This document shows positions 4,780 to 62,997 of a stretch of 64,000 nucleotides of DNA, one piece after another. Position 1 is the stretch's first letter, and each line of letters opens with the position of its first letter. The DNA is from a virus, in IMG/VR virus record IMGVR_UViG_3300048011_000525, positions 51,583 to 115,582 of that record; one strand, 5' to 3'. A program made the translations under genes and the position numbers. The notes beneath the pieces were generated by a model. That model saw only the letters and a list, made by a program, of their open reading frames with translations. It did no database searches and was not told the origin of the DNA.

Positions 4780-5115
4780 ATGAGACCATTATGCACATGC
4801 GGACAGCGTCCTGCTGCAATAAACTACAAAAAAGGTAATAAAACCTATTATAGAAAGCTATGCGAACGTTGTTTACGTAACGGACTAGGACACGGCATTC
4901 CTAAGTGGAAACAACGAGGATATAAGAAAAAAGATGTTTGTGAAAAGTGTGGTTATAAGTCTAAACATCCTGAACAGTTTAATGTATTTCATATAGACGG
5001 GGATTTAAATAATTGCCGGCCAGGCAACTTAAAAACTATATGTGCTAACTGTCAGCGTATTCTTCAAAAAGATGGAGTTGTGTGGAAGCAGGGAGACTTA
5101 GTCCCTGATTTTTAA
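4780..5115 (+). CDS. Small HNH-endonuclease-like Zn-binding protein, degenerate
   Basis: The 111-aa protein has two pairs of cysteines (CTC near the start, CERC about residues 29-32) and then a treble-clef-like HNH region: CEKCGY, VFHIDGDLNNCRPGNLKTIC, CANCQR. Active HNH nucleases usually have HH where this has FH, and NCH(R/K) where this has NCQR, so at least one key histidine is replaced. It could be an inactive relative used for DNA or RNA binding. The last 71 bp overlap the 3' end of the opposing kinase-like gene. It is the only plus-strand gene between gp18 and gp13. Confidence 0.65.
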   Translation: MRPLCTCGQRPAAINYKKGNKTYYRKLCERCLRNGLGHGIPKWKQRGYKKKDVCEKCGYKSKHPEQFNVFHIDGDLNNCRPGNLKTICANCQRILQKDGVVWKQGDLVPDF

Positions 5116-60833: not shown

Positions 60834-61238
60834 TTAGTCAGCTTCGAAATCGTCAGCACCTGTGAATGAATCATCAGTACCAGCTTCTTCCATTTCAACT
60901 GCGCCGTCAGCATTATCATCACTAAAGTTCCAAGCAATACTTGTGCCTGTATCTAGTGTAACTTTACGTCCTGCAATTTTAGTTACTTGACGTGCTGTGC
61001 CGCCATCGTCTTTAACTGTAATAGTCATATCGCCTACTGCTAGAGCACCTTGCGATACATCTGCTAATGTGCAATCTTCTGTGTTTGTGCCGTCTGTGCA
61101 ACGGAACTTTTTGCTTCCTAATTGCTTTACAATCCAACCGTTTGCTTCGGCTTGTCCTGTTGCACGGAAACGTACTTTAATTTCGTTACCGCCAACTGTT
61201 GGCTCTCCGAAAAATCTTTTGTTAATTGGTCTTCCCAT
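60834..61238 (-). CDS. Virion structural protein, function unknown
   Basis: 134 aa. GRPINKRFFGEPTVGGNEIKV and ATGQAEANGWIVKQLGSKKF are followed by CTDGTNTEDCTLADV, a KDDGGTARQVTKIAGRKVTL beta region, and a very acidic C-terminus (EMEEAGTDDSFTGADDFEAD). It is the first gene after the terminator at 61352 and has its own late promoter, a structured leader and AGGAG, so high late expression is likely. A head-surface or fibre-base role is possible but not shown. Confidence 0.6.
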   Translation of the reverse strand: MGRPINKRFFGEPTVGGNEIKVRFRATGQAEANGWIVKQLGSKKFRCTDGTNTEDCTLADVSQGALAVGDMTITVKDDGGTARQVTKIAGRKVTLDTGTSIAWNFSDDNADGAVEMEEAGTDDSFTGADDFEAD

Positions 61239-61328
61239 TTGTTTTCTCCTATAAAAAGTAGTCCTATGCCCGTTCTATGGGCTACGCTGTGGTGCAGCAT
61301 AAGTCCGCCTTGCGGCACACTATCTGAC
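61239..61328 (-). promoter_or_regulatory. Structured 5' leader with three consecutive hairpins
   Basis: Between the predicted late start (near 61328) and the ATG at 61238 lie CCGC-AAG-GCGG, GCUG-CACCA-CAGC and GCCC-AUAGAAC-GGGC in about 50 nt, followed by an AU-rich single-stranded stretch with AGGAG. UAUGC and GCAUA could pair in an alternative fold. The class is not recognised. Confidence 0.5.
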
Positions 61329-61333
61329 ATATG

Positions 61334-61341
61334 TATTTATC
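61334..61341 (-). promoter_or_regulatory. Late promoter (GATAAATA) after the PqqA-unit terminator
   Basis: GATAAATACATAT on the minus strand, 11 nt beyond the terminator stem, driving the gene at 60834. Confidence 0.7.
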
Positions 61342-61351
61342 AAATAAGAAA

Positions 61352-61375
61352 AAAGCCCGCATAGTGGCGGGCTTT
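61352..61375 (-). terminator. Intrinsic terminator of the PqqA/riboswitch unit
   Basis: AAAGCCCGC-ATAGTG-GCGGGCTTT, a 9-bp stem followed on the minus strand by a run of T. It could also work on the plus strand, but no plus-strand gene ends here. Confidence 0.85.
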
Positions 61376-61430
61376 GTTTACTCGCAATCTAATGTTTCTA
61401 TTAGCTTGCTCATATCTATTTTTGATTCTT

Positions 61431-61502
61431 CTACTTGTTCATTACATACATTGTTACTTCGAATCCGAATCTCATCTCTGTTGCTGTTGGTTTTGTCCAC
61501 AT
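61431..61502 (-). CDS. pqqA: PqqA-like peptide, 23 aa (PQQ precursor homologue)
   Basis: The peptide begins MWTKPTATEM and continues RFGFEVTMYVMNK. Bacterial PqqA peptides such as that of Klebsiella have the same length of 23 residues, start MWxKP, and contain R-x-G-x-E-V-T-x-Y. Glu15 and Tyr19 are the residues that PqqE cross-links to make pyrroloquinoline quinone; both are at the same positions here. An AGGAG lies 8 nt before the ATG. It is the last gene before a terminator and downstream of a riboswitch-controlled peptide. No pqqB, C, D or E gene is in the window, so host enzymes would have to process it if PQQ is the product. Chance similarity is very unlikely given length, RBS and motif. 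Confidence 0.8.
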   Translation of the reverse strand: MWTKPTATEMRFGFEVTMYVMNK

Positions 61503-61555
61503 AGTGTACTCCTAAAATTAAGTTAATAAAATTGTACTGCAATACTATTTAAACA

Positions 61556-61563
61556 TATTTAGA
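61556..61563 (-). promoter_or_regulatory. Possible late promoter of the PqqA-like gene (TCTAAATA)
   Basis: TCTAAATATG on the minus strand lies about 53 nt upstream of the PqqA-like ATG, in the gap after the 31-aa peptide. It could allow expression independent of the riboswitch. Confidence 0.4.
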
Positions 61564-61586
61564 GACAAAAATCATCCGTAAAATCA

Positions 61587-61682
61587 TTAAAGATATATAC
61601 GTTTTAATAAAATATCATTTATTTTTTTAATATGGTGCTGTTTGATTAATTGCTTGTAGCACCAAAGGGTATAGTTAGTCAT
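61587..61682 (-). CDS. 31-aa basic peptide downstream of the glutamine riboswitch
   Basis: MTNYTLWCYKQLIKQHHIKK followed by INDILLKRIYL. It has six Lys/Arg residues and one Asp, so it is strongly basic. A GAGGAG lies 7 nt before the ATG. Short ORFs of this kind directly after the 'downstream-peptide' class of glutamine riboswitch are known from cyanobacteria and marine phages. Their function is mostly unknown. In cyanobacteria, glutamine riboswitches also control small glutamine-synthetase inactivating factors, so an effect on host nitrogen metabolism is a reasonable guess. Confidence 0.7.
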   Translation of the reverse strand: MTNYTLWCYKQLIKQHHIKKINDILLKRIYL

Positions 61683-61752
61683 ACACTTCTCCTCGTTAAA
61701 GTTAAAGTGCGTTCCTTCGCAATATGCTACTTCCGTCCCGTAGGATGAACGT
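61683..61752 (-). promoter_or_regulatory. Glutamine riboswitch (glnA / downstream-peptide class)
   Basis: The aptamer core is 61710-61751. P1 is CGUUC with GAACG. Within it lie AUCC-UAC-GGGA (P2), the conserved GACGGAAGUAG, the small hairpin GCA-UAU-UGC (P3) and CGAAGGAACGC. These conserved blocks are the signature of the glnA and downstream-peptide RNAs that bind L-glutamine. After the core, GCACUU can pair with AAGUGU around the Shine-Dalgarno GAGGAG, suggesting control of translation. The late promoter places the transcription start at 61752, directly before P1. Confidence 0.88.
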
Positions 61753-61757
61753 AATAT

Positions 61758-61765
61758 TATTTAGT
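61758..61765 (-). promoter_or_regulatory. Late promoter of the riboswitch unit (ACTAAATA)
   Basis: ACTAAATA-ATATT-A on the minus strand. With 5 nt after the motif the start falls at 61752, one base before the riboswitch P1 stem. Confidence 0.7.
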
Positions 61766-61770
61766 CAAAA

Positions 61771-61794
61771 AAAGGGCGACCTAAGCCGCCCTTT
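61771..61794 (-). terminator. Intrinsic terminator of gp23
   Basis: AAAGGGCG-ACCTAAGC-CGCCCTTT, a perfect 8-bp stem followed by a T run on the minus strand, 25 nt beyond the gp23 stop. Confidence 0.88.
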
Positions 61795-61818
61795 AATGCT
61801 GTTATTACCTAAGTAATA

Positions 61819-62997
61819 TTATGAGAACGTTACGTTACTCATAGTTACTGTACCTAGATAATCCGCTGCGTTACCTAAAGATGACGCAGTGTTGTTTAGC
61901 TCAACATAACCATAACGTGTCATGAAGCTAACAACTGGCTCAAAGCTATCTGGGTCTAGTACTACACCGCTGCTCATCAATGGGATGTATGGGCAGTAGA
62001 ATGCAGCAGCATCTGACTCTGAAGAACCTTTGTAACCAACTAGTACGTTGCTGTCGTCAGCACTGTATGTGTTTACATAGATTTTCATAGCATTGTTCAA
62101 TGTACCAACAAACTTAGTGTTTGTAGGTGCTTCAAACGAACCTTCAGTTGTACGTGCAAACGCTGAAGTAGTTGCTGATTGTAGAACAGTTAGTGCCTGT
62201 GGAGACACAACAGCCCAGTTACCAGCGCCACGACGTGTGCGTTGTGCAATAGTGTTTGCAACACGGTTGATTTGAACAGCTAGTGCAGCATGTTCATCAC
62301 CAACGAATGTAGCTGTACCACTAACACCTGCTTGGTTGTATGCTTCTTGATTTGAAGTTCCTGCTAGTGAGTTAAGTGATCCTAGGACCTCTTGATCAAT
62401 TTCAGCAGTAATTTCTTGTGCTAAAGCAGCCATAATTTCAGCTTCAACATCGATGCCATGCTGTGACTGTGCGTCTTGCGCAGCCTCAAATGTCCAACGA
62501 GCTGATAGCTTACGTGATTTAGCTTCAACAGTTTGCTTCAAGATTTGGATGCTTAGTTTGTTACCAGCATTACCTTCTAGTGAAGCAGTTGAATCTGCTT
62601 TACCAGTTCCAGCACCTGAGTACTGTTCTGCAATCTTGAATGGGCTTAGTGCCTCTTCACCAGATACAGTAGTTTGTGCTGCATCTGCTGAGTTTGTTAC
62701 AGCGTCCGCATAGCGAACACGTAGTGTGTGGATTTGGCCCACTGGACCTGTCATAGGTTGTACACCTACCAATTCGTTTGCAATAACGGTTGGCATTACA
62801 CGTCTAATGACTGGTAAAATAACACGATTAAGTGTTGCGACATTGCCTGCAGAAGTTGCTCCAGCTGTAGCCGACTCTGACAAATACTTACGAGTATTTT
62901 CAAGAGTACTTGCCATTACAGATTTTTTATTACCTGTTAAGCCTTCTAATAGAGCACCTTTAGTCTCCTGCCAGCGACTTTCTAGTAGTTCCGACAT
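61819..62997 (-). CDS. gp23: Major capsid protein gp23
   Basis: The N-terminal half (ENTRKYLSESATAGATSAGN; LNRVILPVIRRVMPTVIANE; LVGVQPMTGPVGQIHTLRVR), the middle (EAKSRKLSARWTFEAAQDAQ; HGIDVEAEIMAALAQEITAE) and the C-terminus (AAAFYCPYIPLMSSGVVLDP; FEPVVSFMTRYGYVEL) match T4-type gp23. A gp21 protease site of the L-x-E type is visible at LSE41. At 392 aa it is shorter than T4 gp23 (521 aa), having lost surface-insert material. AAGGAG precedes the ATG, it follows gp22 by 14 nt, and it is closed by a strong terminator. Confidence 0.95.
   Translation of the reverse strand: MSELLESRWQETKGALLEGLTGNKKSVMASTLENTRKYLSESATAGATSAGNVATLNRVILPVIRRVMPTVIANELVGVQPMTGPVGQIHTLRVRYADAVTNSADAAQTTVSGEEALSPFKIAEQYSGAGTGKADSTASLEGNAGNKLSIQILKQTVEAKSRKLSARWTFEAAQDAQSQHGIDVEAEIMAALAQEITAEIDQEVLGSLNSLAGTSNQEAYNQAGVSGTATFVGDEHAALAVQINRVANTIAQRTRRGAGNWAVVSPQALTVLQSATTSAFARTTEGSFEAPTNTKFVGTLNNAMKIYVNTYSADDSNVLVGYKGSSESDAAAFYCPYIPLMSSGVVLDPDSFEPVVSFMTRYGYVELNNTASSLGNAADYLGTVTMSNVTFS

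Follow-up and report, generated by a model that had tools for sequence, protein, structure and literature searches.

Organization of the locus

The window, i.e., the whole 64-kb stretch of DNA analysed here, comes from a virus record of 115,582 bp, and the features described below lie on its minus strand (Table 1). Behind gp23, which encodes the major head protein, and its terminator we found a TAAATA motif, a riboswitch aptamer, a hairpin (P4) enclosing a Shine-Dalgarno site, a 31-aa ORF (referred to here as the W-C peptide), two further TAAATA motifs, pqqA and a second terminator. Terminator-like stems number three in this 700-bp stretch, versus 0.4 expected. That the riboswitch-peptide unit is real is firmly supported by the sequence comparisons given below.

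Table 1. Features of the riboswitch-peptide unit and its surroundings in the 64-kb window
Feature	Position	Strand	Evidence or remarks
gp23 major head protein	61819..62997	(-)	phrog_138, E 1.3e-102; neighbour upstream of the switch-peptide unit
Intrinsic terminator 3' of gp23	61771..61794	(-)	stem of 10 pairs, 6 GC, T tail
TAAATA, T4-type late-promoter core	61758..61763	(-)	sequence; predicted +1 at A61752
RF01739 type-1 glutamine riboswitch aptamer	61706..61753	(-)	P1 = 61751-61747 with 61714-61710
P4, expression-platform hairpin	61684..61709	(-)	CACUUU 61709-61704 with GAAGUG 61689-61684; covarying arms
Shine-Dalgarno GAGGAG, within P4	61689..61694	(-)	sequence
W-C peptide ORF, 31 aa, MTNYTLWCYKQLIKQHHIKKINDILLKRIYL	61587..61682	(-)	pN/pS; family; predicted helix
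TAAATA motifs (two) ahead of pqqA	61561-61556, 61551-61546	(-)	sequence
pqqA, PQQ precursor peptide, 23 aa, E15/Y19 present	61431..61502	(-)	PF08042, TIGR02107
Intrinsic terminator at the end of the unit	61352..61375	(-)	stem of 9 pairs, 6 GC, T tail

The first TAAATA lies 6 nt ahead of C61751, the first base of P1, and we take it to be a late promoter from the T4-type consensus (TATAAATA-like core). Exactly this spacing was seen in 38 of 110 distinct viral aptamer leaders and a spacing of 4-9 nt in 53, whereas shuffled upstream sequences gave 1%, and chance would therefore not account for the late-promoter reading. The sequence-only reading had proposed a late promoter with its start at P1. 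The core and its spacing are conserved, in support of this proposal, and the start, predicted from sequence only and on the assumption that T4 promoter-start spacing applies, would be A61752, the base preceding P1. As the share of leaders with TAAATA differs by peptide type (29/37 for the window's type, 8/9 for DPRLQ, 1/16 for WxxYC, and 0/15 for YRG), late control belongs to some of these phages and not to all.

Another RNA lies nearby, a freshwater-2 RNA (RF02980, 66.1 bits, 61319-61236, minus strand) that ends exactly at the ATG of the next ORF (61238-60834, minus strand), as it does in 12 of the 13 related loci searched. The ORF encodes a 134-aa MGRP[LI]NK protein, all-beta by prediction, whose phage relatives are unnamed. 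The freshwater-2 RNA thus placed appears to be the leader of a late phage gene.

A type-1 glutamine riboswitch

The leader had been described as a "glnA/downstream-peptide" aptamer, and the covariance models separate the two halves of this name. RF01739 (glnA, type-1) matches over its full length (model positions 1-53); the 50.4 bits obtained exceed the gathering cut-off of 35 (E 4.4e-8 for 64 kb), and no second RF01739 match is present elsewhere in the virus record. RF01704 (Downstream-peptide) gave no match at E ≤ 1 in 61200-61830, which rules this class out for the window leader. By covariance model, then, the RNA is a type-1 glutamine riboswitch.

Several loci (L215-L235, L269, L273, and L274) carry aptamer variants in which GGCCGGGAGTAG or GCCCGGGAGTAG replaces GGACGGAAGTAG, and a P2 pair changes jointly with a core A to G. 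Such variants possibly differ in affinity or ligand; that GGCCGGGAGTAG aptamers (e.g., L215-L228) might bind differently is counted against our main reading. Tandem glutamine aptamers precede single small ORFs at nine loci (L118, L127, L139, L142, L155, L166, L170, L179, and L195). Glutamine riboswitches also occur on alphaproteobacterial and gammaproteobacterial, i.e., non-cyanobacterial, contigs (L359, L369, L394, L416, and L426), where the genes downstream resemble, as far as we can judge, those of an ammonium transporter and glutamine synthetase. The class is given as confined to cyanobacteria in a 2018 review (PMC6316151).

The aptamer is linked to a family of small basic peptides

The W-C peptides are ca. 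30 aa long, basic and helical, with an invariant cysteine adjoining an aromatic residue; W7 and C8 are invariant within the group of the window peptide, and M1 and C8 alone across both groups. The claim of a 31-aa basic peptide was borne out at the level of coding: over 36 distinct relatives the mean pN of the ORF is 0.22 against a pS of 0.66, while the two other frames have pS of 0.18 and 0.28 and pN of 0.31 and 0.26, i.e., by this comparison the ORF is under purifying selection, and in its own frame only. AlphaFold predicts a single helix (residues 3-30, mean pLDDT 91). Searches of Pfam, NCBIfam and PHROGs (best E 0.09) placed the window peptide in no named family, and a PDB sequence search gave best E-values of only 1.9 and 2.6. 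No title or abstract opening naming these peptides came up in a literature search on phage glutamine riboswitches with a peptide target, mostly confined to non-subscription journals. By sequence the family is undescribed.

How tightly peptide and aptamer belong together was apparent from scans that used the peptide alone. Searching IMG/VR with the peptide profile (scan A1) gave 136 pattern matches, of which 72 were kept and 64, failing tblastn, left out; the 72 loci comprise 40 that are distinct in the printed stretch and 32 duplicates. The aptamer lies directly upstream in 63 of them by pattern and in eight more as visible variants, and the contig of the last one (L243) starts 19 nt ahead of the ORF, its upstream region being unreadable. 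A scan for WxxYC relatives (A7) gave 67 pattern matches, 29 of them kept (38 failed tblastn), with the aptamer at 29/29. Both scans thus comprise 101 loci, and at 100 of the 100 readable ones the aptamer immediately precedes the start codon, which also answers the suggestion to look for the peptide behind such RNAs in other phages. The comparison shows an exclusive aptamer-peptide linkage. The unit's location "beside the capsid gene" proved common in the window's lineage but is not general, as the aptamer of phage Melnitz comes after the tmRNA.

The reverse approach, scanning for the aptamer pattern in viral contigs and in genomes, yields counts that are samples among the matches listed. Among those from viral contigs, other types of short peptides were also found behind the aptamer, and an ORF with a ribosome-binding site follows 115 of 122 distinct aptamer cores, giving 105 distinct peptides. 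Two sampled YRG peptides scored 26.5 bits (cut-off 25.3) and 19.9 bits (below it) against DUF4278, and a third with a YRG stretch had no match to this profile. At least 80 loci were obtained from genomes, with W-C and GTSG-type peptides on two proteobacterial contigs (L398 and L419).

PqqA and the probable host

The "PqqA-like peptide" of the sequence-only reading can be called PqqA outright, scoring above the cut-offs of both PF08042 (40.7 bits, cut-off 21.1) and TIGR02107 (39.3 bits, cut-off 20), and its Glu-x3-Tyr (E15, Y19) is presumably the residue pair with a role in PQQ. Its inclusion in the controlled unit was not supported. The gene starts 84 nt beyond the stop codon of the W-C peptide and has TAAATA motifs of its own, and a translational switch working on the ribosome-binding site ahead of the W-C ORF would leave pqqA outside, probably under its own late promoter and separate from riboswitch control.

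A tblastn search with the window PqqA against 50,697 phage records returned 12 matches, ten strong and two weak. Nine of the strong matches come with a named host, and every one of these is a Methylophilales phage (Melnitz x4, Venkman, MEP301, MEP401, MEP402, and P19250A); the tenth is a Manatee Spring contig. The weak matches (E 0.06) belong to Acinetobacter phage bins. Given the nine of nine, the host of the window phage was probably a Methylophilales methylotroph. On the other hand, the phages whose gp23 comes nearest (66-69%) are large ones infecting Vibrio, Sinorhizobium, and Pseudomonas.

In Venkman, P19250A, MEP402, MEP301, and Melnitz (L475-L479) pqqA is unannotated or hidden under a reverse-strand ORF. 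The -1 frame of the window pqqA is open beyond the pqqA stop (61430-61378, minus strand) with a conserved tail, [LI]ETxDCE-stop; 13 of 97 distinct pqqA regions were flagged, most with similar -1-frame tails, the one in L307 being devoid of a start codon. A frameshift or an overlapping gene are possible explanations.

A covarying hairpin masks the ribosome-binding site

P4 fills the interval between P1 and the start codon, beginning at the base next to P1, and carries the Shine-Dalgarno site either in its loop or in its 3' arm. Of the 101 leaders whose P4 stem has at least four pairs, 96 have it flush with P1. Its arms differ between leaders and yet remain complementary, e.g., CACTTT/GAAGTG, CACTC/GAGTG, CACCT/GGGTG, CATCT/AGATG, and CAATCT/AGATTG. 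Arms from the same leader form longer stems than permuted ones (mean 5.42 vs 4.54 bp, sd 0.12, 0 of 2000; 57 of 61 chosen leaders). In an alignment of 60 of the 61 leaders (one tandem-aptamer artefact was dropped), 84.7% of P4 cells pair; shuffling brings this down to 76.8% and sliding to 60.4% or less, and 33 cells are double-changed versus 9.8. Two of the five measures were unexceptional, namely pairs in which both partners change (matched or exceeded in 97 of 500 shuffles) and further pair types (111 of 500), and the outermost pair is missing in 10 of the 60. P1 is invariant and without covariation, its letters being fixed by the selecting pattern. Cyanobacterial leaders (e.g., L361, L393, and L403) have a matching flush hairpin, CGCCTC..GAGGCG. 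Together, these comparisons show that P4, the hairpin masking the ribosome-binding site, covaries. An alternative considered by eye for the window, in which the aptamer core pairs with the P4 arm, fails for other arm sequences and was rejected.

Direction of the switch and alternative explanations

Nearest-neighbour folding alone shows no switch: the mean probability of P4 is 0.87 in the free leader and 0.95 with P1 enforced, and the accessibility of the Shine-Dalgarno site is 0.32 both without and with P1, which would fit either OFF control or no switching at all. The step that would turn expression on requires a tertiary pair outside the scope of the folding program. We take C60 of the solved aptamer to correspond to C61709 of the window, i.e., the first base after P1 and also the first of P4. 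With the linchpin pair assumed and this base accordingly withheld, each of the 96 leaders shows a computed cost of opening the region from the Shine-Dalgarno site to the AUG that is lower by 2.0-3.1 kcal/mol. As glutamine activates expression through both type-1 and type-2 riboswitches (PMC6316151), and the bound aptamer has a G23-C60 linchpin pair at the base of P1 (PMC11477058), the ON direction is favoured, and we infer with fair confidence that glutamine turns translation of the W-C peptide on.

The opposite polarity, in which ligand-stabilised P1 stacks on P4, strengthens it and turns the peptide off, is compatible with the flush arrangement of the two helices and draws on the folding results, where enforcing P1 raises the probability of P4 in 47 of 101 leaders and lowers it in none. 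We regard it as unlikely, since the characterised relatives have the flush hairpin too and are ON switches (PMC6316151), and C60 is already taken by the linchpin in the bound structure (PMC11477058). Less probable still is that PqqA, providing PQQ for host methanol oxidation, is the key product and the 31-aa ORF only serves as its leader or for coupling. Nine contigs resembling short-tailed phages (L102, L106, L124, L125, L147, L162, L180, L181, and L194; L182 is similar) have a pqqA that starts inside the end of a W-C-type ORF just after the aptamer, and because of this overlap that lineage does couple the two; pqqA also adjoins the W-C ORF in the window and in several T4-like relatives. However, viral pqqA is present in at least 593 stretches, and no aptamer lies within 700 nt at any of the best 80 loci, nor is pqqA found at any of the 29 WxxYC loci in the stretches fetched (up to 4 kb each side), which rules out PqqA as a general target of the riboswitch. 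Moreover, pqqA precedes the aptamer in L128, L131, and L213, Venkman, P19250A, MEP301, and MEP402 carry pqqA without an aptamer in the searched stretch, and the W-C peptide is conserved as a protein itself.

There is also a published precedent for control of a neighbouring RNA or gene, with the peptide merely incidental: the glutamine riboswitch of Melnitz is presented as controlling the tmRNA in PMC9004378. The order of elements in this genome (L202) speaks against it. The tmRNA matches end by 4992, the aptamer occupies 5000-5048, i.e., 3' of the tmRNA, and a W-C ORF (MTLYQQWCYLKAQKEYRRRQKILMYFRIRLKG) starts at 5071, its start codon being 22 nt from the aptamer; it is unannotated, and the CDS annotated at this site runs on the opposite strand. 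On this order we reject the tmRNA as the Melnitz target, and with the aptamer directly upstream at every readable peptide locus, we consider regulation of a neighbour highly improbable in general. Among isolates only the four Melnitz records have the W-C ORF; the aptamer of Mosig precedes a 51-aa ORF annotated as hypothetical.

We thus return to ON control of the W-C peptide, and give the whole reading (a late transcript whose type-1 riboswitch turns on translation of the W-C peptide) a probability of about 0.7. A late phage transcript would start at the base of P1, and the riboswitch would control translation of one small protein. Without glutamine, P4, flush on P1, would cover the Shine-Dalgarno site and the spacer ahead of the AUG; once glutamine is bound, C61709 would be drawn into the linchpin pair with G23. 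P4 would then have lost both the pair that closes it and its stacking against P1, which would free translation. What the peptide does can be guessed by analogy with the cyanobacterial factors that inactivate glutamine synthetase: produced on a glutamine-replete signal, it may bind an enzyme or a regulator of the host's nitrogen or energy metabolism. Action on host nitrogen metabolism, as suggested from the sequence earlier, is possible.

Implications and relation to known systems

The phage glutamine riboswitch hereby gains a concrete, testable product and its expression platform has covariation evidence, while the cultured phages Melnitz and Mosig allow direct tests of metabolite sensing in infection. 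The order of elements in Melnitz suggests that its published tmRNA target should be revised. More speculatively, aquatic phages may share glutamine-gated micro-proteins, with one ON-switch leader placed before unrelated basic peptides that are counterparts of the inactivating factors and whose types vary with the host (phages of methylotrophs would have W-C, those of Pelagibacter DPRLQ and GTSG, and others YRG/DUF4278). If this rather doubtful generalization were true, the peptides would switch off the host's glutamine synthetase, or a partner of it, once glutamine abounds in late infection.

Glutamine riboswitches are mentioned for T4-like cyanophages (PMC9602691 and PMC9964418). The aptamers of the Methylophilales phage Melnitz and the Pelagibacter phage Mosig belong to the same class as the window's (PMC9004378). 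Melnitz shares the W-C family peptide, not recognised there, while the peptide of Mosig is of another type; and where Melnitz was published as a case of tmRNA control, the window aptamer precedes a gp23-linked late peptide. The type-2 riboswitch (RF01704; PMC2864571) is likewise a glutamine leader ahead of short ORFs, but its model has no match in the window leader. Phage-borne PqqA and an inferred methylotroph host are also reported for the Baikal phage population VP_266 (PMC7678222), from which the window differs by the riboswitch neighbouring its pqqA and in that no PQQ_2 (PF13360) enzyme was found in its 115.6-kb record. Another close parallel is the cyanobacterial type-1 riboswitch of gifB/IF17, where, as in the window, the aptamer is followed by a flush hairpin masking the Shine-Dalgarno site and by a small basic protein. 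The window differs from it by its predicted phage late promoter and by a W-C peptide that is neither an inactivating factor (IF7/IF17) nor DUF4278 by sequence (the window peptide has no Pfam match). The unit is of a known kind, i.e., a type-1 glutamine riboswitch with a small basic protein, here from an undescribed peptide family.
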